From contig JABLUY010000129.1 in assembly GCA_013306675.1 (NCBI GenBank), positions 1 to 32,469 on the forward strand: 32,469 nucleotides of DNA, written 5' to 3'. Below, in pieces: positions 3,820 to 28,086 of the stretch (position 1 is the first letter of the stretch; each line of letters opens with the position of its first letter). The DNA comes from Thraustochytrium sp. TN22 (lineage: Eukaryota; Sar; Bigyra; Thraustochytrida; Thraustochytriidae). The notes beneath the pieces are model-generated. The model saw only the letters and a list, made by a program, of their open reading frames with translations. It ran no database searches and was not told the DNA's origin. Made by a program: the position numbers and the translations under genes.

Positions 3820-5742
3820 TCATGCACTTGCGTCGTCCCGGCGCATCTCCGCAAACTTGACCTTTTTGGCCAACTCCAGGCTCGTGGGCTCTAGTGCGAG
3901 TGCGTTCCGGTACGCCTTGGCCGCCTCGCTCCAGGCCGCCTCCTTTTGGTGCAGCGTCCCGAGCCGCTTCCAAAGCTTGAGCTCCAGAGCGAGGTCCTCC
4001 TCCTGCTGCTGCGTCTTGGCCCTACGTTCCGCGCTTTCGGCGCCGCGCGCGCGCACCAGCTCCAAGGCGCGCTCACAATCCGCCTGCGCCTCGGCGCCAC
4101 GTTTGAGTGAAAGCAGACAGGCCGACCGGTTCGCGAGTACGCCGACCGCGTCCGGGTCGAAGCCAAGCGCCTTCTCGTAGCAGCGCAGCGCCTCCTCAAA
4201 GTCCTTGCGCCGGAACGCGGTATCGCCCAGGTCCTTTTGTGCGGCGCACTGCACGAGGCAGAGCAGCCGCGCGCAGTCAGCGCGCAGATCCTCGTCGTCC
4301 GGGCTCAAGTCCTGCGCCACCTGGTACTCGGCCAGCGCCGCCGAGTACTTTTGAAGATGCCGCAACGCCGTGCCCTTGCGCACGTGCAACTTCTTGCGCA
4401 TCTCCTTGGTGCGGCGCAGCTCCTTGGGCACCTCAGCGAAGCCCTCTTGCTGCGCGAGCTCCGCCTCCTCCTCGCGTTCCGTCTTGAGCACGGCCAGCGC
4501 GTCGTCGCAGTCCTTCACGCAACGGTCCAGGTGGCCGAGCTTGAGGAAGCACGCTGCGCGATTCGACATGCAGCTCGTCATCTTCGGGTCCAGCTCCAGT
4601 GCGCACGCGTACGCATTCAGCGCGCCTTCGAAGTTGCCGGCGCGGAAAAAGTCGTCGCCCTTGGACTTGAGCCAGAACGGGTCGCGCTCACTAATATCCA
4701 CCGCGTCCAGCCGCTGCCGTGCCTTGCCCTTGATGTGCCTGCGGTTGCGCAGCAGCCAGTCCTCCTCTTCCTCCTTGCGTGACTCGCGCATCGGCGTCGG
4801 GAACACGCGCGCCGTGAAGGCCATCTTCACGCGCACGCCCTGCCGCGGTGGCGGCAGCACCGCCTCCAGCTCGTCGCCTTCCGCCTCAGTCTCGGCCGCC
4901 ACCGCCGGCGCGCGCGACGAGCTGACGCCGCGTTCCGGCTCGGCGCTCTCCTCGGCTGTCTGCGCCTCCATCTCGGCGTCCTCGTCCGCAAAGATGGCAT
5001 CCTCCTCGGCCGTCGCAGCTACCGCCTTGGGCCTTTCTGGCGCCGCTTCCACGGGCGCCGCTTCCACGGGCGCCGCCTCTTTGACCTTGACCGGCGCTTC
5101 ACTGGCGAAGGACACGCGGCGGTCTCTCTTGTCGCCCGAAGCCTGAGCCTTCTTGAGAATAGACTTGACCGGCGTGCCCGCGTTCTCGGCGGAGTCGCGA
5201 ATCTGGTTGCTCGCGACGATCGGGGTTGCGGGCGGCGCGGCCTCGAGCCCACGTAGCGTCTCGTACACGTGCCGCTCGGCCTCCTCCTTCTCCTCGGCCT
5301 TGAGGTCCTCGAGCCGTTGCCGCTCTGCCTCGTCCACGCGCATCTGCATCTGCGTCGTGAAGCGCTCGTCCTTGATCTTGCGTTCGCGCAGCTTCTTGGC
5401 CTGGTCCTGCAGCCGCGCCGTGCGCTCCTCCATGGCCTTGTACCTCCGCTCCTGCATGCTCTTCTTGTCCTTGTGTTCGGCGCACAGCAGCTCGGGCCAC
5501 TCCCCGGCCTCCGCCTTTTGATAGTTGAGCACCAGCACGCCGTCCTCCGCCGTCACGACCTCGGACGCGTCATCCACGTCCGCGAACAGGTCCAGGTGCA
5601 GCAGGTACGGCTTGTAGTTCACCTTGACGTAGCGCGCGCTCGAGTACACGTCCACGCTCTTGAGCGACGCGCGCTTGAGCGGCACCCGCACCGTCACATC
5701 GCGCGCCGTCTGCGCCCACGTGAACTCGCCGCTCAGCACCAT
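3820..5742 (-). CDS. DNAAF4: DNAAF4 / DYX1C1 dynein axonemal assembly factor
   Basis: The 640-residue protein starts at ATG 5742. Residues 1-86 form a CS/p23-like domain opening with MVLSGEFTWAQT, closely matching the DYX1C1 N-terminus. Residues about 91-165 are a charged coiled coil and about 165-300 an acidic Ala/Pro/Glu linker. Next come the family signature FTARVFPTPMRES (309-321) and EEEEDWL, then a TPR block (about 353-495). In this family the protein is an HSP90/HSP70 co-chaperone that acts in the cytoplasm to preassemble axonemal dynein arms. A further TPR block (about 500-632) has two clear 34-residue-type units; the shorter human protein ends after the first block. The segment EAAPVEAAPVEAAP is a small internal repeat. 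Family assignment is strong; the role of the extra block is unknown. Confidence 0.92.
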   Translation of the reverse strand: MVLSGEFTWAQTARDVTVRVPLKRASLKSVDVYSSARYVKVNYKPYLLHLDLFADVDDASEVVTAEDGVLVLNYQKAEAGEWPELLCAEHKDKKSMQERRYKAMEERTARLQDQAKKLRERKIKDERFTTQMQMRVDEAERQRLEDLKAEEKEEAERHVYETLRGLEAAPPATPIVASNQIRDSAENAGTPVKSILKKAQASGDKRDRRVSFASEAPVKVKEAAPVEAAPVEAAPERPKAVAATAEEDAIFADEDAEMEAQTAEESAEPERGVSSSRAPAVAAETEAEGDELEAVLPPPRQGVRVKMAFTARVFPTPMRESRKEEEEDWLLRNRRHIKGKARQRLDAVDISERDPFWLKSKGDDFFRAGNFEGALNAYACALELDPKMTSCMSNRAACFLKLGHLDRCVKDCDDALAVLKTEREEEAELAQQEGFAEVPKELRRTKEMRKKLHVRKGTALRHLQKYSAALAEYQVAQDLSPDDEDLRADCARLLCLVQCAAQKDLGDTAFRRKDFEEALRCYEKALGFDPDAVGVLANRSACLLSLKRGAEAQADCERALELVRARGAESAERRAKTQQQEEDLALELKLWKRLGTLHQKEAAWSEAAKAYRNALALEPTSLELAKKVKFAEMRRDDASA

Positions 5743-6363
5743 GCTCGCGGCCGAGGCGCCCTCGCGCGCCCGCCGCGCCGCGCGCCCGCCTGCCGACGCC
5801 CGCGCCGCGCGCGCGCCGTTCCCGCGGCCTCGGACTTGAGCTCGAAGTAGGTTTGGCTTGGGCTTTGCGACCTGGCCCAGCTGGGACGCGCGGCGACGGC
5901 GAACCCGCCCGCAACGGAAGCCTGGGTTTCTCAGAAGCTGGCCGCCTCCAAGGGCCTCCAAGGCTTCAACTTCAAGTTCTCCGCTGCAGCTGGCTGCAGC
6001 TCGAACTCATCGACGGTGCATGCCTGGGCCCTGCTCGCGCGCGCCACTCTTGAAACAGTAGTTAATTAACCAGCGCGGCGGGCCAAACAGGCCGTGACAT
6101 GCGTCATGGTGTTCTTGGCCGGATGTTGGCGAGAGCGAGCTGACATTTGCGCGGTGGACAGCACTGCGGCCAAGAAGTTCCTTTAGCCTTGAACCTGGAG
6201 TGAAAAGGCAGCCGACACGCAAGCCGATGATTCGTTCGAGTCAGGGCAAAGCAAGTGCGAATGTGACAAGTTTTTGCCGTGGACGACACCACTGTCCGAC
6301 GACATGGCGCGCCAAACGATCATGAACAATGTGGTCGACGTGATCTGTAATCTAAATTTCAGC
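5743..6363. other. Spacer between two minus-strand genes
   Basis: This region should hold the 3' UTR of the nuclease-helicase gene and the promoter and 5' UTR of DNAAF4. The DNAAF4 frame stays open upstream to 5961, but the extra residues are Arg/Gly/Ala-rich, lack an ATG and precede a perfect family-type start. A 10-bp palindrome, GTTAATTAAC, lies at 6061-6070. I see no RNA gene. Confidence 0.55.
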
Positions 6364-6404
<41 letters not shown>

Positions 6405-9400
6405 TCTGCTGCTGCGTCTTGCGGCGGCGAGCCAAGGCGGCGCGACGTGAGGCCGAAAGTCCGGCGCCGGTGGTCGGTGCGGGCGAGGGAGCCTTGGCGG
6501 GCAACTTGCCCGACGCAGAGTCCTTACCCGACAAAGACTCCTCCTTGGCCGGCGCAGAGTCCTCGGCCGGCGCAGAGTCCTCGGCCGGCACAGACTTCTT
6601 GGCCGGCACAGACTCCTTGCCCGAAGCGGGGGGCTTCTTGACGGACTTATCCGGCTGCAAGTATGGATTGACGACCTGCTGCATCAAGTCGTCTGCTGTG
6701 GCCGTGGACGTTGGGATCTCTGCTTCCTGCTTGGGGAGAGTGTAGTAGTCGGAGGGCAGGGGACGCGCGACGAGCGTGAACTCCTTAAAGATGGCGTCAA
6801 AGTTCGCCACGAGCATTGGCTGCGGCGCAAGGTCCTGACCTTCCTCCAGCGTGGAAACGGACTCCTCCCAGAGCATGGCGCAAACCCTCTCGGCGAGGCG
6901 CACACGGGCCGAGTCGAGCTTGACAGCGCCGCCCAGCGTGGAGCGCTTCTTACCGACACAGATGAGTGCATAGTACAGCCAGTCCATGCCGTACGGAAGC
7001 ATCTCAACGTGGTCCGCGGAAGCCGCGTGACCGGCGTGGCCCAGGAGCGTAACGCCGATGGCAAAGCCAGGCAGGCGCTTCTGTTCAGGGAACATGCAGC
7101 TTGCCAGGGAATGCTGCGCAGGGAAGATCTTCTTCACCCGCGGGTAGGTGACGAAAGTGTTGGCTTCGCCGTTAGCATCGGGCCCCATGCCGTCCGGCAC
7201 GCTAAAGCGCACCGGCGTGATGATCGGCGTGAGGTTGACAGGGATTTCCACCGTCACCACGCCGCCCGGATCGCGGCGCACGCCTCCCGGGGCTGAGCTT
7301 GCAAGGTGGTTGGCCTTGAGCTGGAGGGCATTGCGCGGCCGGTTGCCCGAGGCATACGCGATGAGGAGGCGAATGCCAAGCGGCGCGTCAGGGACGGCGC
7401 GCAGGTGCTCGGCACCAAACGTCGTATCGCCCACGCGGTCGTCGTACTCCTCGTTGCGCACGTACAGCGCGCGACCGCGCGAAACTGTCCTGGCCCGGTT
7501 GGCGCCGGGCTCCCGCATCCAGAGCAGCGCCTTCGGGTTGGCGTTCGGCGCGGAAAGAATGTGCGTGTCAGCGAGGGCGCAGGCCAGCGCCTCGTGCGAG
7601 GGCGCAAAGTTCTCGCACGCGACGTCAATCGTCTCGCGGGACTCGCTGGTCGAGAGCTTGCACACGGCGTAGGCGCGATTGGAGTGCGCCTGCCAGGACT
7701 TGACCGCCGCAAGCTCCTTGGGGTTGCGGAGCATCAGCTTGAGCACCGCACGGCCCTCGACGGTCAGCTCGGCATCGATCTCGACAGGAACCTTGAACGC
7801 GGCCAGCGAGCGGAGGAGGTCCTTCTCATCTGGGATGAGGAGCCAGGCCGGGAAAATAGGCCGCACGATCGCTTCGCCGTCCATGTCGGAGTCAGCGTTC
7901 GAGAGGTAGTCGTCCTGCCAGGAGTTGTCCGAATCGTACGCAAAGTCAGCGTTTGGCTCATACGGCTCACGGTACTCGACCAGCTCCCGCTCCACAACGG
8001 TGCTCCACACGCCGTCGTGCGGACCGGCGCCGGTCTTTGCGTTGCCGCCCTTGTTGCCATTGCCCTTCTTCTTCTTGCCCTTGCTGCCAGCCACAGCGGC
8101 GTCAAAGAGGTCGAAAGAGGCGCTGGGCTTGCCGTCGCCGCCCTGTGCCGAAGCACCCGTCCCGCCACCACCGGCCTTGGTCCCGCCGCCAACCACGGTC
8201 GCGTTGACCCAGGCGGAGAAGGGCGCCGCGAGCAGGCGCGATCCGAGCGCCACGACGGCCGCATCCACCTCCGCGTTCGACAAAATCGAGGGCGCGACGA
8301 AGCGGGCCGTGGTCTGCGAGAGCTTGTAGTAGGCCCACTGCACCTCACTCGGATAGAGGTCGGCCAGCATGTCGGGCGTGACGTGGTCGAACTTGCCGCT
8401 GTCAAATGAGAGCCGCGCGTAACGTGCCTCGGGCTCGTTGATGTTGGCCCGGAGGTTGTCCCCGTAGGCTGCCACGTTATTACGTTCGAAGGTCACCAGG
8501 TTGCCCGGGTTCGACGCGAAGAGCACGAAGCGAATCCGATTCAGGCGCGTGGGGTCGCGAAAGATTTCGTCCGGCGGCGGCAGTGCCAGCTCGGACTCGG
8601 GCCGACGCACGATGCGCGCCACGGCGTGCACCAAGTGCTTGTGCAAGACGGCCAGGCGGGTGATGCGCGTCCATGCGAGACCGCCGACGCGGCAAAAGTA
8701 CCGCCGGAAGCCCTCGTTTGGCGTGTGCGTCCAGATGCTGAGAAGGCGCACCAGCGAGAGCGTCTCCGAGTGCATGCCACCGTCCAGCACAACCTTGGTC
8801 GGGATGGTCTGCATAAGGATGCCGTGGTACTCAGCCGGGTCGCGGTGCACGAGCGGCGTGGCGATGCGAAACGGGCCCTTGTCCGCGCTCAGCACTGCGG
8901 CCACTGCGATGCTCTCCGCCAGGCAGTCGAGCATGAGCGCGCGACCAATCAATACGCCCATGCTGAGATCGAGCCCGAGGTGCGTCACGAAGAGGCCCAG
9001 GGGCGTGCGGGCCGCCGTGTCGTCATACTCGGTATCCACGAGGCCCTGCTTGTACAGGTTCATCATGGCGTCCTCGGCACGGTCCAGCGAGGGCGGGTCG
9101 ATGACGTCAAGCAGAATCGGAATTACCGGGCCCTGCACCATGCTCTTGAGGTCGAGGAGCACCTTGTCGAGCGGGCACGAATGAATCTCCGGCAGGTCGA
9201 ACGGCAGCATCTGTTCGTGCATCTCGCGCGTGTACAGGCGCCACACCGTGCCAGGCCGCGTGCGCGCTGTGCGGCCGGCGCGCTGCGTCGCCGAGGCCTG
9301 CGACACCCAACGCGAGTTGAGCGAGGACGTCTGCGAGCGCGCGTTGAACTCGAGCTGTCGCCGCGTGCCCAGGCAGACCACGTTGTCCACGTCCGGCAGC

Positions 9401-12348
9401 GTGATGGACGACTCCGCCGAATTCGTCGCGACGATTACCTTGAGCACATCATCCTCCATGTCCTTCCACGCGTCCAGCTGCTCCTCATAAGGGATGGAGC
9501 TGTGAATGGCGATCACGCGGAATTCGCGCACGCCGCCGTATGTCGTGCCGCTTAGGCTCGGCTGGAACATGATCAGCTCATTCACCTCTTGGAGCTGCGC
9601 CGCGATCTCGATGATCTCCGCCATGCCCGACACGAACACGAGCACAGCGGACCGCGACAGCCGTCCTAGATAGGTCACCAACTGCATCGCCACGTTGATC
9701 TGGGCCTTTACCATGTCCGCCTTGACCTCGATGCTCACCTGCGGGTTCTCCGCCAGGTACTGGTTCAGTGCCGAGTGTGAGAGCCCAACGGGCAGCGGGG
9801 GGCGCAGCTCTAGCGACTTGCGCTGCAGCGCAATCAGCCCAGAGACGGCCTGCTCCACACCCCGAGGCATGGCCTGGGCCACGATCGGGTCGTCCAAAAA
9901 GTGCTCCGTGAGCGGGAACCGCTTCGCGCCGACAAAGAGCGGTGGCGCGCACCCGAAGTAGTCCTGGAAGAGGTTCGCCTGCAGCGTTGCGCTCATGAGA
10001 ACCAGCTTGATCTTCCTGTTCGTGGTCAACAGTCGCTTGGCCAACAGCACGAGAATGTCCTGGTCCACGCTGCGCTCGTGCACCTCGTCCAAGATCAGGT
10101 GCGTCATGCGGTCAAAGTACTCGGGCGACCCGGCGAGCAGCCGCACCAGGTACCCCGTCGTGCAAAACGTGATGGGCGCGCGCTCGCCGCCCTCACGAAC
10201 GCCGCCGCCCAGCCGCAGGCCGACCACCCTGTTTCCGTTCGGAATCTGCGAGGAGACGCGCTGCGCGAGGCTGCGTGCGGCGATACGCCGCGGCTGCGAG
10301 ATGATGGCGCGGAAGCCGCTCCCCTCCGACTCGTACAGGAACCGTGGCAGGCAGCTCGACTTGCCGGACCCGGTCTCGCCGTGCACAATCGTCACGCGGT
10401 GCCGTGCCACGTGCGCTACAATCTCCTCGCGATGCGCGTCGATCGGCAGCGATTCCGGGCCCGCCGACTGCGGAGACGGCGTTCCGAACGGCGGCTTGGT
10501 CGATGACGGCTCTCCCTGGGACCCAGGCAGCTTGGGCACCGCAGACCCATCCTGTTTGGGCGTCCGCGGTGGCTGGCGTGGCGTGCCTTGACGCGGGGCG
10601 CCGCCGCGCTTCCGCTGGTGGGACGAAGGCCGCGCCACCCCGTCCGCAGACGACTTGCTCACAAAGTTGAACGGAGCCGGCTGCGTCGAGGCCGATGGGG
10701 CTTGCTGCGACTGCATCGGACTGGCCGATGCGCCGGCGCGACCGAGCACGATTTCATCGCCCAGATCATCCTCATCATGATCATGATCATTGGCCTCAAC
10801 CTTGGCGGCGTCCGTCCCCGACGCGGCATTGCCCGGCGTCCTCTCGAAGAGGATCCGCATGGACTCAGCGCCAACTTGCTCCGCAGCTTGCCCATCCGTC
10901 ACCAGTGCCTCAAGGGGAAAGGCAATCGGCACCGAGAGACGCTCAAGCGAAGAGGGCGTGCGGAATTCCTCGGTGCCCTCCTGGTGGTTCGTGAAGACGT
11001 CTGCGCGGTGGGGCGGGCGTGCTATAATCGTGCGTGCGAAGCCTCGCGCCAGCATCTGCGCGAGGTAAGCCTCGCAGTAGCGCGTCCAGCAAGGCTCTGC
11101 CGTCACGTGCTGCGGCACGGCCTTGGACTCTCTCCACATTGCCTCTCCCGCTTCGAGCAGCACTGGAAGGAGGTCGAAGCTGCGAGGGGAATCGAGAGAT
11201 CCGCGCAGATGCCGAAAGCGCCTTGCGACGTGGTCGGCGTACTGGCGGAGCTCCAGAAGCTGTGCCATGAGCTGCTCCTTGGTGAAACTGCCGTCAGGAC
11301 CCAGCGGCCGGCGCTCGTGGTCGAAGAAAGTCCCGTCTGGGCCCAACTCCCGTAGCTGGTACCCCACCAGATCAATGTCCTCCGCAGATAGCTCCGACAC
11401 AGAGAAAGCGTCGTTCCGGAACACCAAGGAGGCGCCATCGCTGGTGTCGGCGAAGAGGAGATCCTCCACCGGAGCTGACCCAGGCTCCACCCGATTGTCG
11501 TAGAGCCGCGTGGCAAATGCAGAGTCGGGGACGGCCCCGAGCGTTTCCCGCGTCGGCCCGGTGCCGTGGCGAAAGAAGTTCACGATGTGCGCCACGCGGT
11601 CCACCAAAGACACCCTGCCCAGCTCGCTCGGCAGCTCCCAGCCCTCGCAAAAGTCGGTGCCAATCGCCAGCGCGAGGTCCGTCATGCGCTCCTCCGGCAC
11701 TCCCAGCGCCTGAGCGAGCCAAGCACGCGTGTACACTCGACAGCGGCCGTGCTGAATCGTATCGAGCGGAATGTACGAGATGCCGGCCGTGAAGAAGTAG
11801 TCAGAGTCCTGAGCAAGCACATAGGACCCTGGCTCCCGGGCGGCAGCCTTGGCCACCACCTCGTCGGCCTCCCCACGCGCGTACACCATGGTCGGTCGAG
11901 CGGCGCCCTCGGCGTCTGGCTTCCGATGCCACTGACCGCAGCACTCCTCGCGAAACAGGGGTGGCATTGGCAGCTCCCGCGACGACGCGGGCGTCTCACC
12001 GTACTCAAGCAGCCGATACAGCCTGTACACCTTGTCCGCGCGCTCACTCCTTCGCTTCTCCAGCGTCGTGCGCTTGCTCGCCGGCTTGAGCGGGCCGTCC
12101 ATGACGATGGTCACCTCGTTCATGCACTCTCCGACCTGCACCTCCACGAACCGTCTCGCCGCGGCGCCGATGGCCGTGTAGTCGCCGCCCAGCTTGCGCT
12201 TGGCTGCGGCGCCGCAGCAGTCCACCACGAAGTGCGCCAGCCCATCTCCGTCCACGAACACCTTGCTCTCCCGGGGGATGTCCTGCTCCGGCGGCTGCCT
12301 GCCGGCCAGCTCGCGCTTCAGGTACGCTGTGAACCCCGGCAGGCCCAT
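6364..12348 (-). CDS. Asteroid/FEN-type nuclease fused to a DEVH-box RNA helicase
   Basis: The 1,994-residue protein is one uninterrupted frame from ATG 12348, the first in-frame ATG. Residues 1-260 are an XPG/FEN-like PIN-fold domain of Asteroid (ASTE1) type. It starts MGLPGFTAYL and has the expected acidic residues: D33 and D35 (VDGDG), D84 (VMDG), E160 and D162 (GEADE), D181 and D183 (QDSDYF), D232 (GTDFCEG). A 260-residue all-helical-looking stretch and a Pro/Ser/Gln-rich linker (about 535-630) follow. A DEAH/RHA-family helicase begins near 633: motif I GETGSGKSS (657), Ia QPRRIAARS (685), II DEVH (754), III SATLQ (786), IV VLVFVSG (902), V VATNSAESSI (973), VI QRAGRTAR (1022), then HA2 (about 1080-1240). 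The C-terminal 700 residues have no domain I recognise and end in six-residue repeats and polyglutamine. Nuclease and ATPase residues look intact. RNA processing or decay is an inference. Confidence 0.9.
6367..6402 (-). repeat. (CAG)12 microsatellite coding C-terminal polyglutamine
   Basis: Twelve uninterrupted CTG units on the + strand read as CAG, coding Gln on the minus strand. They are the last twelve codons before the stop of the nuclease-helicase gene. After a Lys codon interruption, three more Gln codons lie just upstream. Such pure triplet runs are length-unstable. Confidence 0.95.
6542..6613 (-). repeat. Four 18-bp in-frame repeats in helicase C-terminus
   Basis: Four near-identical 18-bp units start at 6542, 6560, 6578 and 6596. 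They encode hexapeptides of the type S-V/A-P-A-K/E-K/D/E in the disordered tail of the nuclease-helicase. Degenerate flanking units (SGKES, SGKDS) suggest an older, longer array. Confidence 0.85.
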
Positions 12349-12389
12349 TTTGCCCTCCTCGCCGTCGCCTGCGTCGCCTCCGGGTCGCC

Positions 12390-12497
12390 GAGCGCGGCGA
12401 GCGCGGCGAGCGCGGGGAGCGTGACGAAGGCGGCGAGCGCGGCGAGCGCGACGAAGGCGGCGAGCGCGGCGAGCGTGACGAGCCCGGCGAGCTGGAG
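12390..12497. repeat. 9-bp tandem array, consensus GAGCGCGGC
   Basis: About twelve 9-bp units start at 12390. GAAGGCGGC and GAGCGTGAC variants recur in a pattern that suggests a 27-bp higher-order unit. The array begins about 40 bp upstream of the helicase ATG, so it is probably in its 5' UTR or core promoter. Confidence 0.85.
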
Positions 12498-12754
12498 CTG
12501 CGCCCTGCCGAGGCCACCCTCCGCGGCCCCTGGCAGAGAACGCAGTAGCTGCTCCGCGGCGGCTTGGGAGACTGCGCGCGCTCGGCCCTCCGCGCGCGCC
12601 GGCCCTGCCCTCGGATTCCCGTGGCCTCGCGTGGCCACGCCGGAGTGGAACGAGCTCTGCACAGTGCTTGCTCCGCCGCCAGTGATGGCGCTTCGGTCCC
12701 GGATGTTGGGACCTCGGCGCGCGAGAGTGATGAAGAGAGTGACGGTACAACGCA

Positions 12755-12874
12755 ATGCGAAGCGATGCGAAGCGATGAGAAGCAATGCGAAGCAATTCGA
12801 AGCGATGCGAAGCAGTTCAAAGCAATGCGAAGCAATTCAAAGCAATGCGAAGCGATGTCAGGCGATGCGAAGTA
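12755..12874. repeat. 10-bp tandem array, 12 copies, consensus ATGCGAAGCR
   Basis: Units start every 10 bp exactly from 12755 to 12865 with no indels. The consensus is ATGCGAAGCR, with substituted copies such as ATTCAAAGCA and GTTCAAAGCA. The 10-bp period is not a multiple of three, so the array is not a protein repeat. It matches roughly one turn of the DNA helix. It lies about 400 bp from each flanking ATG. Confidence 0.92.
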
Positions 12875-16008: not shown

Positions 16009-16581
16009 TTAAGCTTGGTAAGATTCTGTATGATGAGACGTGCTGTGTTGTCTGTGGTCAGGTTGCCATGTGCATCTTCTGGCGGCCGACAGCCATGGCT
16101 CGTTTCACAAGACTCGCAGAGCGAGCCCTTTGGCGCGGTGCAGGCTCGCCCTGGTGCTTCGCTTCGGCATCCATGATTGCCGCAACTGCCTCCTCGTCGT
16201 TAAGCTTGGTAAGATTCTGTATGATGAGACGTGCTATGCTGGCTGTGGTCAGGTTGCCATGTGCATCTTCTGGCGGACGACAGCCATGGCTCGTTTCACA
16301 AAACTCGCATAGCGAGCCCTTTGGCGCGGTGCAGGCTCGCCCTGGTGCTTCGTTTCGGCATCCATGATTGCCGCAACTGCCTCCTCGTCGTTAAGCTTGG
16401 TAAAATTCTGTGTGATGAGACGTGCTGTGCTGTCTGTGGTCAGCTAGCCATGTGCATCTTCTGGCGGACGACAGCCATGGCTCGTTTCACAAGACTCGCG
16501 GAGCGAGCCCTTTGGCGCGGTGCAGGCTCGCCCTGGTGCTTCGTTTCGGCATCCATGATTGCCGCAACTGCCTCCTCGTCG
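16009..16581 (-). repeat. Three tandem 191-bp copies of a kinesin 3' end with stop codon
   Basis: Units start at 16009, 16200 and 16391, each beginning TTAAGCTTGG on the + strand; the period is exactly 191 bp both times. Read on the minus strand, each unit has 142 bp of coding sequence (46 codons plus TGA) and about 49 bp of 3' flank. The unit at 16391-16581 is the real end of the KIF6-like gene. The other two lie downstream of its stop. Their copied frame is intact: differences in copies 1 and 2 change a few residues (for example S to Y, L to F, V to G, terminal S to T) but introduce no stop or frameshift. Confidence 0.95.
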
Positions 16582-18128
16582 TCTGCGTGCTCTGATCCAT
16601 GGTCAGGACCGAGCCAGTGCTCAAAGGCCTGCAGCCAGGCCGCGTGCTCCACCATGCTGCCGTCCGTAGCGTACTCGAGCGAAGCGAGCTCCGTCCCGTG
16701 CTCGTAGCCGTGCAGGACGAAGTTCGCATGGATGCCATCGTCCTGACGCACGCGACGAAAAGCAGCGACATCTGCACGGCGCAGCTCCATGCAGCGCATG
16801 CCCGGACCGTTGAGTAATATTGTGCACGCATCCAGGTCAACTTGAACGGCGACGCCATTGCGGAACTCGAGCTCGGAGGACACAAGGGCGTTGACGTTCT
16901 CGTCGATGTGGTCCAAAATGCCACGCAACATGTCCCCAATTTCCGCGTGCTCGCGCAGCGAGGTGAGCGCGCGCGCAAGGTCGCGTCGCAAGGTAATATT
17001 TTCGTCCTCCAGGCGCCGGATCCGCTGCGGGAGCGTCTCATTCGTGCTCACGCGCGTCGTGATGCAGCGGCACCGTTGCGCAAAGCGGCATGTCGCGAGC
17101 GACTCGATGGCGTGCGCCGCCTCCGGGTTTACGGTGACGAGGAAAGCCGTCTGGCAGTTCCCGGTGAGGCTGTCACGCAGGAGCGTGGTCATGGTCGAGT
17201 TGCGGAAGCAGACGTGGCTGCGACGGCCCTGCAGGTTCATTACGACCTGCTCCAGAAAGTGCAGCGACAGGTTGATGTGCTTGGAGGTATGGTCCTGAGT
17301 CCGCTCGGAGCCCGCAAGGTCCACGAAATTGATGCGCCCCACGTGCGCGATCGTTTCGACCTCAATGGAAAACACGCAGTGCGAGCGCGAACTGGACATG
17401 TTGAGCGATGTGCGGCCCGTGCTACGCTCCACGCTGCCGGCGAAGAAGGCATCCAGAGCATCCTCCTCGGACTGTGTCTCGCGCACGTGCAGATCACGCA
17501 CCGTAACGCTCGCAGGCCGAGGGGCGGTTGCCGCCTCCGAAGTTGCCGCCGTCGCAGCAGGGGGTTTGGGTGCCGTGACGAGCGACACGCGCTTGCGGCT
17601 GCGAAGCAGGTCGTAGACCACCTCATTATAGACTTCCACGAAGGATACGCGGCAGCGCCGCAGGCGCGGGTCCTCAAAGAGGACGCTGAGAGCGCGCGGG
17701 ACGACCCCGCGCGACTCGTACGACTCCCCGCCCGTGATTGTGTACGTCTTGCCAGACCCCGTCTGGCCGTATGCAAACATGGTGCAGTTCTTTCCGGCGA
17801 GCACCGCGTCCACGAGCGGGCGCACCGCGGACTGGAAGACGTGGTCCTGCCGCGCGTCAGGCCCGAAGACGCCATCGAACTGGAATACGTTTTCCGCGGA
17901 CCGGGTCGCATCGTCAAGTTCATGTCCCTGGCTGCTGACGCCCCTGCGCCGCCCGATGATCGCCTCCTCGCCCTTGGCCGCCCACAGCGGCGGCCCCAGC
18001 GTCGTGCTGATGTTCACCGTGCCTGCGCGCTCGTCTGCGCTCACGCACCCCGGGCCCGGTTCCGCCCCTCGAAACGCCACTGGCAGGCCACCGCCTCCTC
18101 GCACGCGAGCGTACGTCCTCACCCTCAT
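16440..18128 (-). CDS. KIF6: Kinesin-9 family motor, KIF6-like, with altered switch II region
   Basis: The 562-residue protein starts at ATG 18128 (MRVRTYARVR). Motor landmarks are FDGVFG (85), P-loop GQTGSGKT (121-128), switch I NMSSSRSH (243-250) and switch II DLAGSE (270-275). Next come INLSLHFLEQ (285), FRNSTMTTLLRDSL (308) and CRFAQR (347), which together match KIF6/KIF9 best. A Pro/Ala/Thr-rich insert lies at about 185-205. A short coiled coil (370-395) and a small C-terminal domain follow. Kinesin-9 motors act in cilia and flagella. Oddities: the usual RVRP start reads RVRGGG, and only eight residues separate DLAGSER from INLSL, where KIF6-type motors have about sixteen. Loop 11 and the start of helix 4 are therefore shortened. 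The last 46 codons are duplicated downstream. Confidence 0.85.
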   Translation of the reverse strand: MRVRTYARVRGGGGLPVAFRGAEPGPGCVSADERAGTVNISTTLGPPLWAAKGEEAIIGRRRGVSSQGHELDDATRSAENVFQFDGVFGPDARQDHVFQSAVRPLVDAVLAGKNCTMFAYGQTGSGKTYTITGGESYESRGVVPRALSVLFEDPRLRRCRVSFVEVYNEVVYDLLRSRKRVSLVTAPKPPAATAATSEAATAPRPASVTVRDLHVRETQSEEDALDAFFAGSVERSTGRTSLNMSSSRSHCVFSIEVETIAHVGRINFVDLAGSERTQDHTSKHINLSLHFLEQVVMNLQGRRSHVCFRNSTMTTLLRDSLTGNCQTAFLVTVNPEAAHAIESLATCRFAQRCRCITTRVSTNETLPQRIRRLEDENITLRRDLARALTSLREHAEIGDMLRGILDHIDENVNALVSSELEFRNGVAVQVDLDACTILLNGPGMRCMELRRADVAAFRRVRQDDGIHANFVLHGYEHGTELASLEYATDGSMVEHAAWLQAFEHWLGPDHGSEHADDEEAVAAIMDAETKHQGEPAPRQRARSASLVKRAMAVVRQKMHMAS

Positions 18129-18259
18129 TCCCAGGCCTCCTCTGCGCAGCTCCAGCCGCAGCGCTGGCCTCCACTGCACGGCCACCGCCGGCGCCACCAC
18201 CAGCCTGAGCCTGAGCAGCAGGTCGGTTACGTTCGGCCTCGCTCGCCTCTGCGCCTACC

Positions 18260-20839: not shown

Positions 20840-21523
20840 GGCTGGCTGGCCGCGCGTCGAGCCGAGCCGAGCCGAGCCGAGCCAAGCCGAAGCCGAGCGG
20901 CCCGGGGTCGCGTCGCGTCGCGTCGCGTGGCGTCCAGTTCTACTTGCTAGCGAGCCGCAGCATGTGCCTGCGGACTCGGACCCGCCTGACTGTGAGAGAG
21001 GATTGAGAGAAAATGCAAATGGAGGCAAAAGAGAGAGAGAGAGAAAAATGCGAACCACATCACACTGCACTGCAACGGTGTGTGCCTTCACACGTTTCCA
21101 GGTTCGGGGCTTCTTCTTTGGCTACAGGTCGCGCGCCAGGCGCAGTCTCGCGGCGGGCGCGCCGTGGCGTGCGCATGGAGGCCGGCGCGAGGCCGGCGCG
21201 GGCCGGGCGGCGCCGTCAAGCCGAGGAGGCTGCAACCTCAGCTCGGCCGAGCCTGAGCCGGGGACAACAGCCCCGGAGCCGTTTCGTCAATTCGGAGGCC
21301 GCGCACTGCAAGACACGCGGCGCGAGAAAACGCAGCGCGTAAAGAAGAAGGCCTGAGACGGAGTGAGCTGACAGAGCAGAGAACGAGAGAGCCGCGGCGC
21401 AGAGGCAGAATTAACGTCGGCAGCGCAACGTTCGGTTGTCTCCGGTTGGCCGCTCAGCTCGCTCGCTGCGCGTGCGGAGCGCAGCGCGGCGCGGCGCGGC
21501 GCGGCGCTGCGCAGCGCGGTAGG
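20840..21523. promoter_or_regulatory. Divergent spacer (SPRY protein / kinesin-3-like) with simple repeats
   Basis: This 684-bp spacer should hold both promoters. It contains GAGCC pentamers (20858-20897), GTCGC pentamers (20907-20931), a GA run (about 21030-21044) and GCGGC repeats (about 21481-21518) ending just before the kinesin ATG. No gene is visible. Confidence 0.5.
20858..20931. repeat. Two adjacent pentanucleotide arrays
   Basis: About seven GAGCC-type units (with GAAGCC/CAAGCC variants) are followed by four perfect GTCGC units and one GTGGC. They start about 20 bp upstream of the SPRY-protein ATG, so they are likely in its 5' UTR. Confidence 0.85.
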
Positions 21524-24500
21524 ATGGACATCATGTCGCCGCTCTCGGCGCCCAGCACGCCGCCTACGCCGCAGCTCCAGCGCGGGGCCCGCAGGAGGCG
21601 GCAGTCGTCCGTGCAGGAGGTGGCGAGCTCTATTCGCGTGGCCGTGCGCGTGCGGCCCTTCTCCAAGAAGGAGGAGGCCGCCGGCGCACGCAGGGTCGTG
21701 GAGATGGACGGCAACACGACCGTCATCACCGACCCCACGCTCTACTTGCATCTAGAAAGCGGCGCCTGCGGCGAGGACGACGCGGATGGCATGGAGGAGA
21801 TGGACGACGTCTGGCGCACGCAGTTCACCTTCGACCGCTGCTTTTGGTCCTGCGACCGCGAGAACCCAAACAGTGAGTACGCTTCGCAGATCGACGTATT
21901 CGATACTTATGGCCCGTGGATCATCCAGAATGCCGTGGAGGGCTTCAACTGCTCACTCTTTGCCTACGGCCAGACAGGCTCGGGCAAGACCTACACGATG
22001 ATGGGCAGCGACGTGGACATCGGGCCGGACGGGGATGCCGGCTTCATCCCGCGCCTGTGCGACGGCATCTTCCGCGAGATCAGCAACCGGTCCCTGGCGG
22101 AGTCAGGCGTGCTGCCTGGCGCCCTCGGAACCCCGGACGGCGGCTCGCTCGTCATGGCGCACCTCCCGAGCGGCAAACACGCACAGAGCGCCTTTCATGT
22201 GGAGGCATCGTACTTTGAGATCTATAATGAGCGCGTCTTCGACCTGCTCAACCCGAACAGCAGGCTGGACGAGTCCCCGCCCAGCCTGCGCGTGCGCGAG
22301 CACCCAAAGACGGGTGCCTATGTCGAGGACCTGCTCACCATCGCGGTGAGCTCATACCACGAGATTGAGGAGCTCCTCAAGCAGGGCGCCACGGCGCGAC
22401 GCGTCGCGGAGACCAACATGAATAAAGAGTCTTCGCGCTCGCACGCGGTCTTCCAGCTCGTGCTGCGCAAGCAGCGCGACGGCGCGGACTCCAAGCGCGT
22501 CGAGCAGAGCTCGCGCCTGTACCTGGTGGACCTGGCCGGCTCCGAGCGGGTGAGCGCGTCGGGGGCCACGGGGGCGCGCCTCAAGGAGGCGGCCAACATC
22601 AACCGCTCGCTGTCTGCGCTCTCAGACGTGATCAAGGCGCTCACGTCGCCGCGCACGCTCGAGGCTGCTGGCAAGCAGTTTGTGCCGTACCGCAATAGCG
22701 CGCTCACATGGCTGCTCAAGGAGTCGCTGGGAGGCAACGCCAAAACCGTCATGCTGGCCACGGTCTCGCCAGACGGCGTCAACTACCAGGAGACGCTTAG
22801 CACGCTCAAGTACGCGGAGCGCGCCAAGAAGATCGTCAACAAGGCACGCGTCAACAAGGAGTCCAACGCAGCCCTCGTCGAGGCGCTTCAGCTGGAGATC
22901 CAGCAGCTGCGGGAGCAGCTGGCACGGTACGAGAAGGATGGGTCCTGCTCGTCTTCGGTCAGCAGCCCAACCTCGCCGGCCTCGCGGCTCGAGCGCACCG
23001 AGGCGAACCGCCGCAAGCTGCTCGTGAGACTGGAGAGCCAGGAGAAGCTCGTCACCAGCCTGTCCACCTCGTGGGAGCAGAAACGGGAGCTGGCGCAGGA
23101 GCACTTCGCGGAACTCGAGACGCAAAATGCGCGCCTGCAGCGCGAGCACGCCGAGATGGAGGCCGAGATGCAGCGCCTGCTCTCCGAGAAGCTCGCCCGG
23201 GACGCCGAGGAGGAAAAGCGCCGTCAGGAGCGCCAGCAGCGGCAAAAGCACCAGATTGAGCAGCAACTCCTCAAGCGCAAGCAGGAGCAGAGCAAGCAGC
23301 AAATCACGCAGCGCGAGCTGGAGGAGCTGCGCGCGCGCGCCGAGGCACTCGAAGGCGAGAACCGCACGTTGCGCGAGGAGCGTGACGCCGCACTGCAAAC
23401 CTCCGCCGACCTGGCCAAGGGCAACTCGGGCCTTGAGCGAAAACTGATCAAGGAAGGCCAGCGCCTCGCATCGAGGAACCGCCGCCTTGAGGCGCTGTAC
23501 CGCCTCATCCTCGAAAATCAGGCGCTCGCGCGAGAGGTCAGCCCAGCCGTCGCCCTGGCGCACGGCGTTGACCGCACCAAGGATGCCGGCTCGCCCTCGG
23601 ACGACGCGAGCGAGGCCAGCAACGGCGCACAAGACGACACCACTGTGGACGTCGAGAAGACCTTGGCGCTACAGCTCGCCCGCGCGCACGAACTCGGGGC
23701 CCGCTGCACGCACCTCGAGGCATACTGCACCATGGTGGCGCCCGTGGAGCGCGCGCTGGGCTCCGACAAGCGCGAGCTTGCTGCCGCCCTGGAGCGCGTC
23801 GGCCGCGAGCTGCAAAAGGACAACAAGGCGCTGGACCGCCTCGCTATCGCCGCGGAGAGTGACGCATGTCGGCACGAGAGTGCCGAGCAAAAGGCTGAGG
23901 AGGAGGCCAGCGGCCTTCGGATGCAGCTTGCCGCGGAGACAGATCGCGCCCATCGTGCTGCGCAGGAGTGTGCCGAGCTACGCGCTAGCCTTGCGGCCTC
24001 GAGGGACGAGGCTGCCGAGGCTGCTGCTGAGCACGCGCGCTTCAGAGCGCACGTGGACGTCCTCTCTGAAGATCTGGCCCAGAAGCAGACTGCCCTCCAC
24101 GAGGCCGAGGAGAAGCTGCAAGGCTACGAGGCAGACGCCGCAGCACTAGATCACGCCAAGGAGGAGCTGGCCGAGGCGGCGCGCGAGACTGCCGTCCTTC
24201 GCGCCCGACTCAAGGCGCACGACGAGGAAGCCACGGCAAAGCACGCAGCCCTAGCGTCAGACCTTGAGGCGGCAAGACTCGAGGCCGACTCGCAGGTTAC
24301 CGCGCTCAAGGAGCAGCTCCAAGCGTCGGAGGCGAGTGCTGGCAAGCTGCAGGACGCGGAGGAGCGAATTCGAGAGCTTGAAGCCTTGTTTGCGGCGGCA
24401 AGCGAGAAGCAGTCCAAGGAACTCGAGGCTGCCGCGACAAAGCGCGCAGAGGAGCTTGCGGCGGCGGAAAAGGAGCGCACCGAGGAGCTCGCGGCGGTCC

Positions 24501-26173
24501 AGAGGAGGCTTCAAAACGCCGAGCTTCGTGCTGCCGAACTTGAAACAGCGCGGGAAGATCTTCGCAGGGCTGTGACGCGCGTTGAGGAGCTCGAGACTTT
24601 CGTTGTAGAGTCCGAGTCGCTCCGCGTCGAGCTACAACATGCGGAGGCCCGCATCGCAGAGCTCGAGACGCTGGTTTCGGAGACTGCCGTGCTGCAGGGA
24701 GAGCAGCAGGAGACGGAATCGAGCGCTGCGGCGGAGCTCAAGGCACTCCACGAGCAGTTGCAGGCCCAAAGCGCTGCGCTGGACGCGGCACGGTCTGAGT
24801 CGCACAAGGCGGGCGAGGCCGCCAATGCCCTGCGCGAGGAGCTGCACGAGAAGGGTTCTGCGCTGCGGACGTCAGAGGACGCGCTGCGCAAGGCGAATGA
24901 GGAGCTGCACAGGGCCAACGAGGGGCTCCAAGCCAAGGACGAGGCCCTGCAGTCGACGCAGTCAGCCTCTCTCAAGGAGCTGGAAAGGGCGCGCATGGAG
25001 CTCGAAGATGCGAAGAAAGAGGTCCAGACCCTTCACGAGCAGCTTCACGCTCGCGAAGCCAGTCTGGAGACGACGCAGTCCGGCCTGGAGAAGGCGAGTG
25101 AAGAGATCGAGGTGTTGCAAGGCCAGCTGCAGGAAGCCCGCAGCGCATGCGACGCCGCAGAAGGCTCACGGGCGAGCCTGGAGGAGGCGCTCATGGAAAT
25201 GCACGAGTCGCGCGCAGCGGAGAACGCGAAGCTGAGCGACCTGGAAGCCACCGTGGCGAAGCTGCGGGCCGAGCTCCAGGGGCGCCAGGAGAGCGTGGAG
25301 CGCCTGCAGCTGGACATGAACCAGCAGCGAGAAAACGCGGCGCACCTGCGGCAGGTGCACAACGACGACGTACAGACGCTGGAGCTGCAGGTGGCGAGTC
25401 TGGAGGCAGATCGCAACTCGCTCGGCGAGCGACTGGCGAGTGCGCAGGCCGAGGTGGCGAGCCTGCGCGCGCAGCAGGGCGCTACGAACCGTGAGTGGGA
25501 GACCCGGTGCGCGGAGAAGGACTCGGAGATCGAGGAGCTCGAGGAGCAGGTGCGTGCGCAGCAGCAGGAGATTGAGATTGAGCGCAAGGAGCTCTCGCTG
25601 GCCTTGGCGGCCGCGCAGAGCCAGGCCGCGCTGCTTCAGGGCAAATTCAAGACGATCGAGCAGGCGAAGCGGTCCGCGAGCCAGGCGCGCTCGCGTGAGC
25701 GCGACACGCAGGAGGAGCAGATGGAGGTCCTGGCTCGCGACAAGGTGGCGCTGGAGAGCGAGCTGCGCAGCAAGGCTGAGGAGTGCGACCGGTGGCGCGC
25801 CTCGGAGCTGGACGCCATGAAGACCAACTCGCGGCTCGAGATGGAGCTCCTCGCGGTGCGCGACCAGAACGCCTTTCTCCTTGAGACCGAGGGCAAGCTG
25901 CGCGAGCGGGTCGATGCACTGTCCAGGGAGCGGCAGGAGGCGCTTGAGAGGGTGCGTGCCGCGACGCAGGACGGCTCTCATGAAAGGCTAGCGCTGCGGC
26001 AGAACCTGCAGCAGGCGCAGGCGGAGGCGGACGCCTTACGCAAGCAGCTGGAGAACGAGCGCACGGCCTTTGACTCGATCCTCAAGGCGCAAACCGAGAC
26101 GCTGCACTACACAACCTTTCACCCAAAGCCCGCCGACGACGCGGAGCGCAAGGAGGAAGAGGAGATCAGGTAG
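21524..26173 (+). CDS. Kinesin-3-like motor with ~1,050-residue coiled-coil tail
   Basis: The 1,549-residue protein starts at ATG 21524 (MDIMSPLSAP); a second Met is at residue 4. The motor spans about 37-445: IRVAVRVRPF, P-loop GQTGSGKT (149-156), NMNKESSRSH (298-307), DLAGSER (336-342), FVPYRNSALTWLLKESLGG (386-404) and LSTLKYAERAKKIVNKA (425-441). The SEYASQ, TWLLKE and neck features are typical of kinesin-3. The segment QEKLVTSLSTSWEQK (506-520) resembles the kinesin-3 neck sequence that normally precedes an FHA domain, but no FHA domain follows. Instead about 1,000 residues of Glu/Ala/Leu-rich heptad-type coiled coil run almost to the end. A plus-end transporter with an elongated dimeric tail is likely; the cargo is unknown. 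There is no PH or lipid-binding domain. Confidence 0.88.
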   Translation: MDIMSPLSAPSTPPTPQLQRGARRRRQSSVQEVASSIRVAVRVRPFSKKEEAAGARRVVEMDGNTTVITDPTLYLHLESGACGEDDADGMEEMDDVWRTQFTFDRCFWSCDRENPNSEYASQIDVFDTYGPWIIQNAVEGFNCSLFAYGQTGSGKTYTMMGSDVDIGPDGDAGFIPRLCDGIFREISNRSLAESGVLPGALGTPDGGSLVMAHLPSGKHAQSAFHVEASYFEIYNERVFDLLNPNSRLDESPPSLRVREHPKTGAYVEDLLTIAVSSYHEIEELLKQGATARRVAETNMNKESSRSHAVFQLVLRKQRDGADSKRVEQSSRLYLVDLAGSERVSASGATGARLKEAANINRSLSALSDVIKALTSPRTLEAAGKQFVPYRNSALTWLLKESLGGNAKTVMLATVSPDGVNYQETLSTLKYAERAKKIVNKARVNKESNAALVEALQLEIQQLREQLARYEKDGSCSSSVSSPTSPASRLERTEANRRKLLVRLESQEKLVTSLSTSWEQKRELAQEHFAELETQNARLQREHAEMEAEMQRLLSEKLARDAEEEKRRQERQQRQKHQIEQQLLKRKQEQSKQQITQRELEELRARAEALEGENRTLREERDAALQTSADLAKGNSGLERKLIKEGQRLASRNRRLEALYRLILENQALAREVSPAVALAHGVDRTKDAGSPSDDASEASNGAQDDTTVDVEKTLALQLARAHELGARCTHLEAYCTMVAPVERALGSDKRELAAALERVGRELQKDNKALDRLAIAAESDACRHESAEQKAEEEASGLRMQLAAETDRAHRAAQECAELRASLAASRDEAAEAAAEHARFRAHVDVLSEDLAQKQTALHEAEEKLQGYEADAAALDHAKEELAEAARETAVLRARLKAHDEEATAKHAALASDLEAARLEADSQVTALKEQLQASEASAGKLQDAEERIRELEALFAAASEKQSKELEAAATKRAEELAAAEKERTEELAAVQRRLQNAELRAAELETAREDLRRAVTRVEELETFVVESESLRVELQHAEARIAELETLVSETAVLQGEQQETESSAAAELKALHEQLQAQSAALDAARSESHKAGEAANALREELHEKGSALRTSEDALRKANEELHRANEGLQAKDEALQSTQSASLKELERARMELEDAKKEVQTLHEQLHAREASLETTQSGLEKASEEIEVLQGQLQEARSACDAAEGSRASLEEALMEMHESRAAENAKLSDLEATVAKLRAELQGRQESVERLQLDMNQQRENAAHLRQVHNDDVQTLELQVASLEADRNSLGERLASAQAEVASLRAQQGATNREWETRCAEKDSEIEELEEQVRAQQQEIEIERKELSLALAAAQSQAALLQGKFKTIEQAKRSASQARSRERDTQEEQMEVLARDKVALESELRSKAEECDRWRASELDAMKTNSRLEMELLAVRDQNAFLLETEGKLRERVDALSRERQEALERVRAATQDGSHERLALRQNLQQAQAEADALRKQLENERTAFDSILKAQTETLHYTTFHPKPADDAERKEEEEIR

Positions 26174-26295: not shown

Positions 26296-28086
26296 TTACG
26301 AGGACGAGGACGGGGACGAGGAGGATGGCGGTGGCACTTCGCTGGCAAGGTCCCAGCCGTGCCGCTTCTTGACCTGCTCGAGGCGATGGTCGCTCATGCG
26401 CGAGACCCTCTCCTCGTACGAGTCGCACAGCTGGCGCTCGAAAAGCGGGACGTGCTTGGGAATCCTGGCCACGCGCCCCTGGCGGCCAGGCTGCGTCCGC
26501 GGGAAGTCGCTGAGGATGTGGTCAAAGTGCTCCGACTCGTGAAAGGGGATGAGCTCGCCCTGGTCGTTGCTGACGGGCGCACGCTCATCGATGAAGTCAA
26601 TGACGCCGCGTGTCATGGCGGCGTCAAGCGCGCTGCGCGACTCTCGCAGCTCGAGGCGGCCGCGCAGCTGCGCAAGCGTTTTTGCGTCATAACGGAAGTT
26701 GAAGTCCTTCTCAGAGTACTCGCTCTCGTAGAGAATGAGCGGCAGCTCGGAGGCGATGTCGTAAGGCGGCTTGCGTGGGTTCTTCTCGATGTCGAGGAGC
26801 TCCTGCACGACGGACGGCTGCTCGAGACCCTGGCCGACGAGGAAGAGCACGGACGCAATGCAGCGAATCTGGTGCCAGAGGAAGGCGGACCCGCGCACGA
26901 GAACGTAGCACATCTCGTGGCGGTCAATGTCGGGCGCGTCAGCCGGGCCGCCGGAGCAGCGGACGACCTTGGCGCTCTCGATGCGGCGCACGAAGTTCTT
27001 GACGTTGTCCACGTCCATCTTGCAGAGGTGCCGATAGTCGTGCGTGCCCTCCAGCAAGTCTGCGGCGCGCTGCATGGCGACGAGGTCCAGATCGCGGCGC
27101 ATGAAGTAGTAGCGGTAGCAGCGTGACTCGCAGTTGAAGCGCGCCTTGTACTCACGGTCGGGCGCAGGCGCCCAGCCGAGCACAAAGATGTCAGCGGGAA
27201 GCAGGCGGTTGAGCATGTTCGGGTAGTCGATCTCCAGGGCGTCGTCGCTCTCGCGGGGGTCCGGCTCGTTTGGCGTCGCGGCGTTCTCGGCGGCGAGGGC
27301 GCTGGCCTCCGGTTCGGCGCCATCGGTCTGCGCCTGAAAAGACTTCTTCTTCTTCTTGGGCGGTCGCTGCTTGAGCGCCGGATACGCGGACGCCTCTGGG
27401 AGCGGGCGCGCAAGGTTGGACCGCACGGTGAGCGTGATGACCTGGCCGAGGGCCGAGACGCCGACGTCCGTGCGGCCGCAGCGCGAGTAGTTGGAGGAGG
27501 GCCTGTCCGTGATGAGGCAGGCCTTGGTCAGCGCGTTGAAGAGGTGCGCCTCGATGGTCTCCTCGGAGGTGACCTGCTTGCAAAGTCCGTGGAAGTTGCC
27601 GCCAAAGTAAGCCAGGTGCAGCGCGATGTGGCGTTGCGCGAAGTAGTCCATGTTGAAGGCCCTGTCGCCCTTGTTCTTTTGCTGCTGCTTCCGCCTGCCA
27701 TTCTGTCGCTGCGCCTTGCCGGCGTTGTCTCCGCCGTCGTCGGCGGCCTTGCCGTCCTCCTCGTCGGGGCGGCGCTTCTTGCAGAGCGGGCCGGCCTCGT
27801 CGCCCGCGGCCTCTCCCTGCGCCGCCGCCGCCGACGACGACGACGACGACGACGACAACGAGGTGGCGTCGAGCTTGTGCGCTCGCGGCGCCTGCGCCTG
27901 CCGCTGCTCCTCGGCCTGGCCCTGCAGCTCGCGCTCGAGGTCCTGGCGCAGGCGCTCGGGCTGCTGCGAGACGTGCTGCGCCGCCGCCCGCACGGCCTCC
28001 TCGCCGTAGGCGTCCGCCAGGCGCAGCACGAGCGCCTTGAGCTCGAAGCGCGACAGCCGCCGCAGCCAGTCGCCGCCCGTCGCCAT
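26296..28086 (-). CDS. PUS3: tRNA pseudouridine(38/39) synthase, PUS3/Deg1
   Basis: The 596-residue protein starts at ATG 28086. Residues 1-145 are a variable extension with a helix, a polyserine/polyalanine run and basic stretches that could act as nuclear signals. The TruA-type catalytic domain starts near 150. SNYSRCGRTDVGVSALGQ (198-215) contains the catalytic Asp207. Also present are NMLNRLLPADIFVLGWAP, ARFNCESRCYRYYF, GTHDYRHLCKMDV and AFLWHQIRCIASVLFLVGQG. LCKMD and NIEKNPRKPPYD identify the PUS3/Deg1 branch rather than PUS1. The enzyme makes pseudouridine at positions 38 and 39 of the tRNA anticodon stem-loop. The residue two after the catalytic Asp pair (GRTDKG in most relatives) is Val instead of Lys. 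A charged insert (about 235-285) splits the domain. It is divergent with the next gene, only 80 bp away. Confidence 0.93.
   Translation of the reverse strand: MATGGDWLRRLSRFELKALVLRLADAYGEEAVRAAAQHVSQQPERLRQDLERELQGQAEEQRQAQAPRAHKLDATSLSSSSSSSSAAAAQGEAAGDEAGPLCKKRRPDEEDGKAADDGGDNAGKAQRQNGRRKQQQKNKGDRAFNMDYFAQRHIALHLAYFGGNFHGLCKQVTSEETIEAHLFNALTKACLITDRPSSNYSRCGRTDVGVSALGQVITLTVRSNLARPLPEASAYPALKQRPPKKKKKSFQAQTDGAEPEASALAAENAATPNEPDPRESDDALEIDYPNMLNRLLPADIFVLGWAPAPDREYKARFNCESRCYRYYFMRRDLDLVAMQRAADLLEGTHDYRHLCKMDVDNVKNFVRRIESAKVVRCSGGPADAPDIDRHEMCYVLVRGSAFLWHQIRCIASVLFLVGQGLEQPSVVQELLDIEKNPRKPPYDIASELPLILYESEYSEKDFNFRYDAKTLAQLRGRLELRESRSALDAAMTRGVIDFIDERAPVSNDQGELIPFHESEHFDHILSDFPRTQPGRQGRVARIPKHVPLFERQLCDSYEERVSRMSDHRLEQVKKRHGWDLASEVPPPSSSSPSSSS
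27834..27857 (-). repeat. (GAC)n run coding polyserine in PUS3
   Basis: A GAC/CGA triplet run on the + strand reads as TCG serine codons on the minus strand. It gives the Ser run at about residues 77-85 of PUS3, next to a short Ala run, in the non-conserved N-terminal extension. Confidence 0.85.

Follow-up and report, generated by a model that had tools for sequence, protein, structure and literature searches.

A predicted Asteroid-type nuclease domain and a divergent DEVH-box helicase in one open frame of Thraustochytrium sp. TN22

A long open frame in contig JABLUY010000129.1 of Thraustochytrium sp. TN22 raises the question of whether a single protein joins a nuclease of the FEN/XPG superfamily to a DExH helicase and, if it does, what such a protein would be for. 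The window analysed here (the whole stretch of DNA, 32,469 nucleotides) had previously been read from its letters alone, and this sequence-only reading described an uninterrupted frame of 1,994 codons. That description was borne out: the frame lies on the minus strand, with its ATG at 12348 and its stop at 6366-6364, has no internal stops, carries coding signal throughout and is the longest among the frames listed in the window. Its parts, all on the minus strand, are as follows.

6364..12348, minus: complete frame (P0002), 1,994 codons plus stop (ORF list, simulation, codon usage)
11449..12348, minus: predicted FEN/XPG-superfamily (Asteroid-type) nuclease, residues 1-300, with D33, D84, E160, D162, D181, D183 and D232
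11668..11883, minus: match to Pfam XPG_I_2 (Asteroid), residues 156-227 (24.0 bits, E 3.2e-5)
10816..11448, minus: residues 301-511, where a stand-alone Asteroid would have its C-terminal half (Smith-Waterman score 48)
10459..10815, minus: linker, residues 512-630, acidic and then Pro/Ser/Gln-rich, in frame and free of stops
8830..10455, minus: predicted DEVH-box helicase core, residues 632-1173, two RecA-like domains and a winged helix by alignment to DHX29 (phmmer, Pfam)
8092..8829, minus: residues 1174-1419, where DEAH/RHA helicases have their ratchet and OB domains (similarity suggestive only)
6700..7902, minus: orphan region, residues 1483-1883, with no detected relative
6364..6699, minus: low-complexity tail, residues 1884-1994, with poly-Q end and stop

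The length of this frame is beyond chance. The open run at the gene is 2,150 codons long; when the window was simulated 200 times with a second-order Markov model, the longest runs averaged 466 codons and reached 825 at most. When codon usage trained on four neighbouring frames was scored in fifty-codon windows, the frame beat the other two forward frames in every one of the 39 windows between codons 3 and 1952, the linker included, and was the best of all six frames in 37, the exceptions being codons 1203-1252 (0.10 versus 0.11) and 1353-1402. The coding signal begins sharply at the ATG, upstream of which the frame was the best in none of five fifty-codon windows and the 149 open codons have a different codon-position composition. 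Two tandem arrays, at 12389-12492 and 12752-12872 (9/27-base and 10/40-base units), lie just 5' of the ATG.

The remainder of the window holds several further genes. Adjoining the fusion gene, at 3820-5961 on the minus strand, a CS domain and tetratricopeptide repeats are encoded in one frame. Two kinesin motors were found, at 16440-18200 (minus) and 21446-26173 (plus); the latter is a kinesin-3-like frame of 1,575 codons whose best PDB matches are KIF13B and KIF1A. A tRNA pseudouridine synthase domain (PseudoU_synth_1, E 2.2e-27) is encoded at 26296-28086 (minus). Scanning the window for Rfam families and for tRNAs returned nothing.

Judged by similarity, residues 1-300 are a FEN/XPG-superfamily nuclease domain closest to Asteroid. 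The Pfam Asteroid family XPG_I_2 (PF12813) scored 20.8 bits with the whole protein, 24.0 with residues 1-300, and 24.1, and 24.7 with frame neighbours; Pfam's curated cut-off for this family is 24.2 bits, and the 24.1/24.7 match was returned as over it. In a single hhalign comparison, residues 1-300 matched a FEN/XPG profile set over 283 columns (88%, E 3.2e-7), and the match rose to 96.8% (E 3.8e-10) when the genome's own Asteroid was added to the query; that Asteroid alone matches the profile weakly (11%, E 6.4e-4). As controls, all four other segments of the fused protein that were compared gave 0.07% or less, and 100 shuffles reached at most 10.3 against the observed score of 38.6. The profile search thus placed residues 1-260 inside the XPG/FEN superfamily, as had been proposed from the letters. 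A HMMER model of archaeal FENs gave a weak score for residues 1-300 (7.5 bits, with a maximum of 5.6 among the 716 of 2,000 shuffles that were scored), and a phmmer search of residues 1-504 against PDB retrieved no FEN chain and no relative. We note that the routes to homology used for the nuclease (Pfam, profile-profile, Smith-Waterman and six-frame match) are partly dependent on one another.

The active-site residues were compared with those of archaeal FENs. A scan of at least 119 archaeal loci, 18 of 119 without a usable FEN frame, yielded 75 less redundant archaeal FENs, 47 of which entered an alignment that has 48 rows with the fused protein. D33, D84, E160, D181, D183 and D232 occupy columns invariant over these 48 rows, and D162 falls in a column that is nearly always E in the archaeal FENs. 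The acidic set listed in the sequence-only reading therefore stands for these seven residues, and D35, which it had included, lies outside the conserved set, in a column that is nearly always N. At column 51, a nearly invariant aspartate of the archaeal FENs is an arginine in the fused protein. Similar to FEN1, EXO1 and XPG, the domain has the catalytic acids and, in a FEN-guided model, may share their fold; it differs in that it is only 15-22% identical to archaeal FENs, scores weakly with HMMER, and mostly does not conserve the glycine-rich stretch that follows the last FEN aspartate.

Both the nuclease and the motor types also appear, by their sequence matches, as separate proteins in the same genome (37.9 Mb in 453 contigs searched). 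A stand-alone Asteroid of about 492 aa, in a frame of 503 codons on contig C123 (L155:739-2214, minus), scores 40 bits to PF12813. In a six-frame match over the whole genome it was found with residues 25-240 of the fused protein (E 0.0017), and its Smith-Waterman score with the fused protein is 107, whereas none of 500 shuffles scored above 66. The two align from residue 1, each beginning with MG, and have the VDG, EAD and DSD motifs in common. Residues 300-520 of the fused protein score 48 against this Asteroid, a value reached by three of 500 shuffles, and the Pfam matches of residues 301-511 stayed at E 0.21 or worse. The orphan C-terminal region was also considered as a displaced C-terminal half of Asteroid and was dropped, 93 of 500 shuffles reaching its score. 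Motif expressions found no helicase motifs in the 9 kb around the stand-alone Asteroid, and none of the fused protein's 21 matches in the genome lies on its contig. Four places in the genome match PF12813 and ten match XPG_I (eight of them over the cut-off, one being FEN1-like by our reading); the ten contigs that carry the other DEAH-type genes found are absent from all of these places, so that none of these genes shows the nuclease.

A further FEN/XPG-type gene was met in a dispersed, roughly 5.3-kb element, present at L183:2291-7625 (contig C177), with copies at L181 (C398), L182 (C88) and L185 (C267) and a shorter stretch at L184 (C73); identity among the five loci compared is 94.9-100%. 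One of its frames (756 codons) matches the DDE_Tnp_4 transposase (E 1.4e-33), another (383 codons) has no Pfam match, and one more (473 codons) matches a FEN/XPG-type nuclease (XPG_N 3.4e-15, XPG_I 3.6e-7). No clear terminal inverted repeat emerged from a simple check. The element may be a DNA transposon that carries a gene for a FEN-like nuclease; in a literature search, neither XPG nor FEN1 occurred among the matches listed.

The helicase of the fused protein is, by alignment, closest to DHX29 and DHX36. A phmmer search of PDB with residues 632-1173 retrieved DHX29 (E 9.8e-65) and DHX36 (E 8.1e-64) at 211-222 bits, with PRP16 (183.6 bits), Spindle-E and others ranked below. The DHX29 alignment joins 542 residues of the fused protein to 553 of DHX29. 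Pfam found DEAD and Helicase_C over their cut-offs; HA2, which the sequence-only reading had proposed to look for alongside DEAD, was not matched anywhere in the fused protein, and neither was OB_NTP_bind. That reading's claim that all DEAH-family motifs are present was slightly too strong: GETGSGKS, DEVH, SATL and VATNSAESS are there as listed, and motif VI is a variant, reading QRAGRTAR where all nine DEAH-type paralogues recovered from the genome have QRxGRAGR. With the Pfam and profile matches, the genome's own Asteroid, the coding signal and the DHX29 match taken together, there is good support for the central claim that one frame encodes both an Asteroid/FEN-type domain and an RHA-type helicase with a DEVH box.

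The helicase is also very divergent. The whole fused protein has 21 matches in the genome (24 of 30 candidates scored), namely itself and 20 on ten other contigs, all within residues 530-1172. Among the nine paralogue frames recovered, three have a DEVH box and six a DEAH box; contig C139, which had no full DEAH frame by the motif rule, was left out of the tree. In this ten-row tree of the genome's own sequences, a 100/98 branch has the six DEAH-box rows on one side and, on the other, the fused protein with the three rows that have DEVH. The end branch of the fused protein measures 2.76 against a median of 0.78, in a tree without named reference rows, and its position is unsure because this branch is so long. 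Because of this divergence and the changed motif VI, ATPase activity would be uncertain.

For the ratchet and OB domains that follow the winged helix in DEAH/RHA helicases, the similarity is suggestive only. By hhalign against the genome's own paralogues, residues 1150-1480 gave 0.4% (score 9.1; the best of 60 shuffles scored 8.8) and residues 1280-1480 gave 0.85% (score 11.3); residues 1030-1480, which include the winged helix, gave 99.5%. Beyond this point, Pfam matched nothing in residues 1483-1883, even with E up to 10; PDB gave nothing convincing for them, and they matched no other place in the genome. A sequence search of PDB with the C-terminal 842 residues found no relative. A CTG run at 6367-6415 (CAG on the coding strand) encodes the poly-Q terminus.

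Read from its N-terminus, then, the predicted protein would begin with an Asteroid-type FEN/XPG nuclease, continue through a flexible linker into a divergent DHX29/DHX36-like DExH helicase and carry a large orphan region towards its C-terminus, and we somewhat favour the interpretation that it is a single-chain unwind-and-cut enzyme, most likely one of RNA surveillance. Powered by ATP, the motor would move along single-stranded RNA (or ssDNA) and open structure, passing the opened strand to the tethered nuclease for a metal-dependent cut. In the cell, structured or foreign RNA would be destroyed or trimmed in this way, and the orphan region and tail would serve recruitment. The DHX29/DHX36-type DExH family acts mainly on RNA, which is why RNA would be preferred over DNA as the substrate and surveillance of DNA would be less likely than that of RNA. 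A helicase and a nuclease also occur in one chain in Dicer, DNA2 and Cas3, which embody the same idea of a motor and a cutter; their nuclease folds and helicase families differ from those of the fused protein, and no homology to them is claimed.

Among described proteins, the N-terminal FEN-like domain resembles that of Asteroid/ASTE1, with its MG start, its VDG.GL, EAD and DSD motifs, and GxD. The differences lie in what surrounds the domain: silkworm Asteroid, at 746 aa, has no domains besides PIN and XPG (according to the excerpted text of PMC10298989), the stand-alone Asteroid of this genome is shorter still, and no helicase is described on any Asteroid in the portions of the literature covered. 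In silkworm, per the same excerpts of PMC10298989, dsRNA or virus induces Asteroid, and virus growth rises when Asteroid is knocked down. The single paper retrieved with PF12813, PMC7598268, concerns insect nucleases, to judge from the portion available. The likeness to DHX29 and DHX36 spans about 540 aligned residues, from both RecA-like domains into the winged helix, and includes the DEVH box; the fused protein is distinguished from them by its variant motif VI, its long branch, its N-terminal nuclease and the lack of a secure ratchet/OB match.

A different reading keeps both activities and moves them to DNA, the protein being a helicase-nuclease for break or fork processing in which an ASTE1-like endonuclease trims strands opened by the motor. 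The retained FEN-type acids would suit this, as would the precedent of ASTE1 itself, which is described in the excerpted text of PMC12599495 as a DNA endonuclease that is recruited by shieldin and cleaves 3' ssDNA overhangs. Set against these points, the eight places over the XPG_I cut-off, the FEN1-like one among them, already provide the genome with enzymes for DNA work. The chiefly RNA-directed habit of the helicase family also speaks against it, and we regard this reading as unlikely.

It is more improbable still that the N-terminal domain is a catalytically idle module for nucleic-acid binding or scaffolding, as is proposed for Mkt1, which would make the protein a helicase with a PIN-like adaptor. 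Such a role has a counterpart within what has been proposed, in the available portion of PMC12345631, to be a single structural class of Mkt1, ASTE1 and FAM120: the Mkt1 proteins of S. pombe and S. cerevisiae keep only two of six active-site residues, and silencing in S. pombe is unaffected when these are mutated (excerpted text of PMC7026591). Unlike Mkt1, which has lost most of its active-site acids according to that text, the fused protein keeps all six acids in the invariant FEN columns together with D162. Additionally, no MKT1 domain was found in it, Pfam scans having matched neither MKT1_N nor MKT1_C with E up to 1 for the full-length protein and up to 10 for the parts outside residues 632-1149.

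The unwind-and-cut reading supposes one gene, and the place where two might meet is the linker. Of the 39 windows, those in the linker at codons 553-602 and 603-652 rank lowest and third lowest for coding (-0.16 and -0.05 bits per codon), and in both this frame still scores above the other five. Donor-like GTRAGT/G sites occur three times in the frame, at residues 718, 1334 and 1941, and not in the linker; no AATAAA-like signal was found anywhere in the frame. By the rule used, the single in-frame intron candidate spans residues 718-847, and it is unlikely to be real because the DEVH box would be lost with it. Large single-frame genes are usual here, the P-loop and DExH box sharing one frame (766-1651 codons) in nine of the ten DEAH-type contigs and the neighbouring kinesin being a further example, so an intron in the linker is also unlikely. 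That two adjacent genes share an open frame by accident, or that an unspliced in-frame intron joins them, is consequently very improbable, even though the high G+C (66%) makes long chance frames common and methionines are available at residues 497 and 545, since a helicase-only gene would also need its own promoter within the nuclease frame.

With regard to novelty, both families are known, and their combination was not found described in the literature covered, which suggests, weakly, that the arrangement is new. Among the matches listed in the literature, no title or abstract opening told of an Asteroid- or XPG-helicase fusion, and the retrieved portions of PMC11574390 and PMC13139092 gave nothing decisive on the fusion. 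The sequence collections probed for relatives, viral_contigs and genome_contigs, which are viral and prokaryotic and were probed with a few short peptide patterns, are uninformative on eukaryotes. In viral_contigs there were 257 pattern matches with the whole protein, three with the nuclease and 44 with a two-row nuclease alignment, none of them a confirmed relative; a FEN motif pattern there found 27 stretches, all lacking the second FEN motif sought. The nuclease query gave 17 pattern matches in genome_contigs and no confirmed relative. NCBIfam and PHROGs returned helicase matches only for the fused protein.

Returning to the single-chain enzyme, a bolder form of the proposal, which we put forward tentatively and regard as less likely than not, is that an Asteroid-class FEN nuclease driven by a DHX29/DHX36-type motor would constitute an undescribed eukaryotic unwind-and-cut enzyme of RNA or R-loop surveillance. 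The roles reported for the proposed ASTE1/FAM120/Mkt1 class, in the portions of the literature covered, are scattered over the processing of DNA ends, RNA silencing and resistance to viruses. As one clonable enzyme, the fused protein would allow strand opening and cutting to be measured together. If the proposal is true, the logic of gene fusion hints that stand-alone proteins of the ASTE1/FAM120/Mkt1 class may work with DExH helicases elsewhere, and the fusion to an RNA-type motor would name their partner activity, which would be testable in other organisms.
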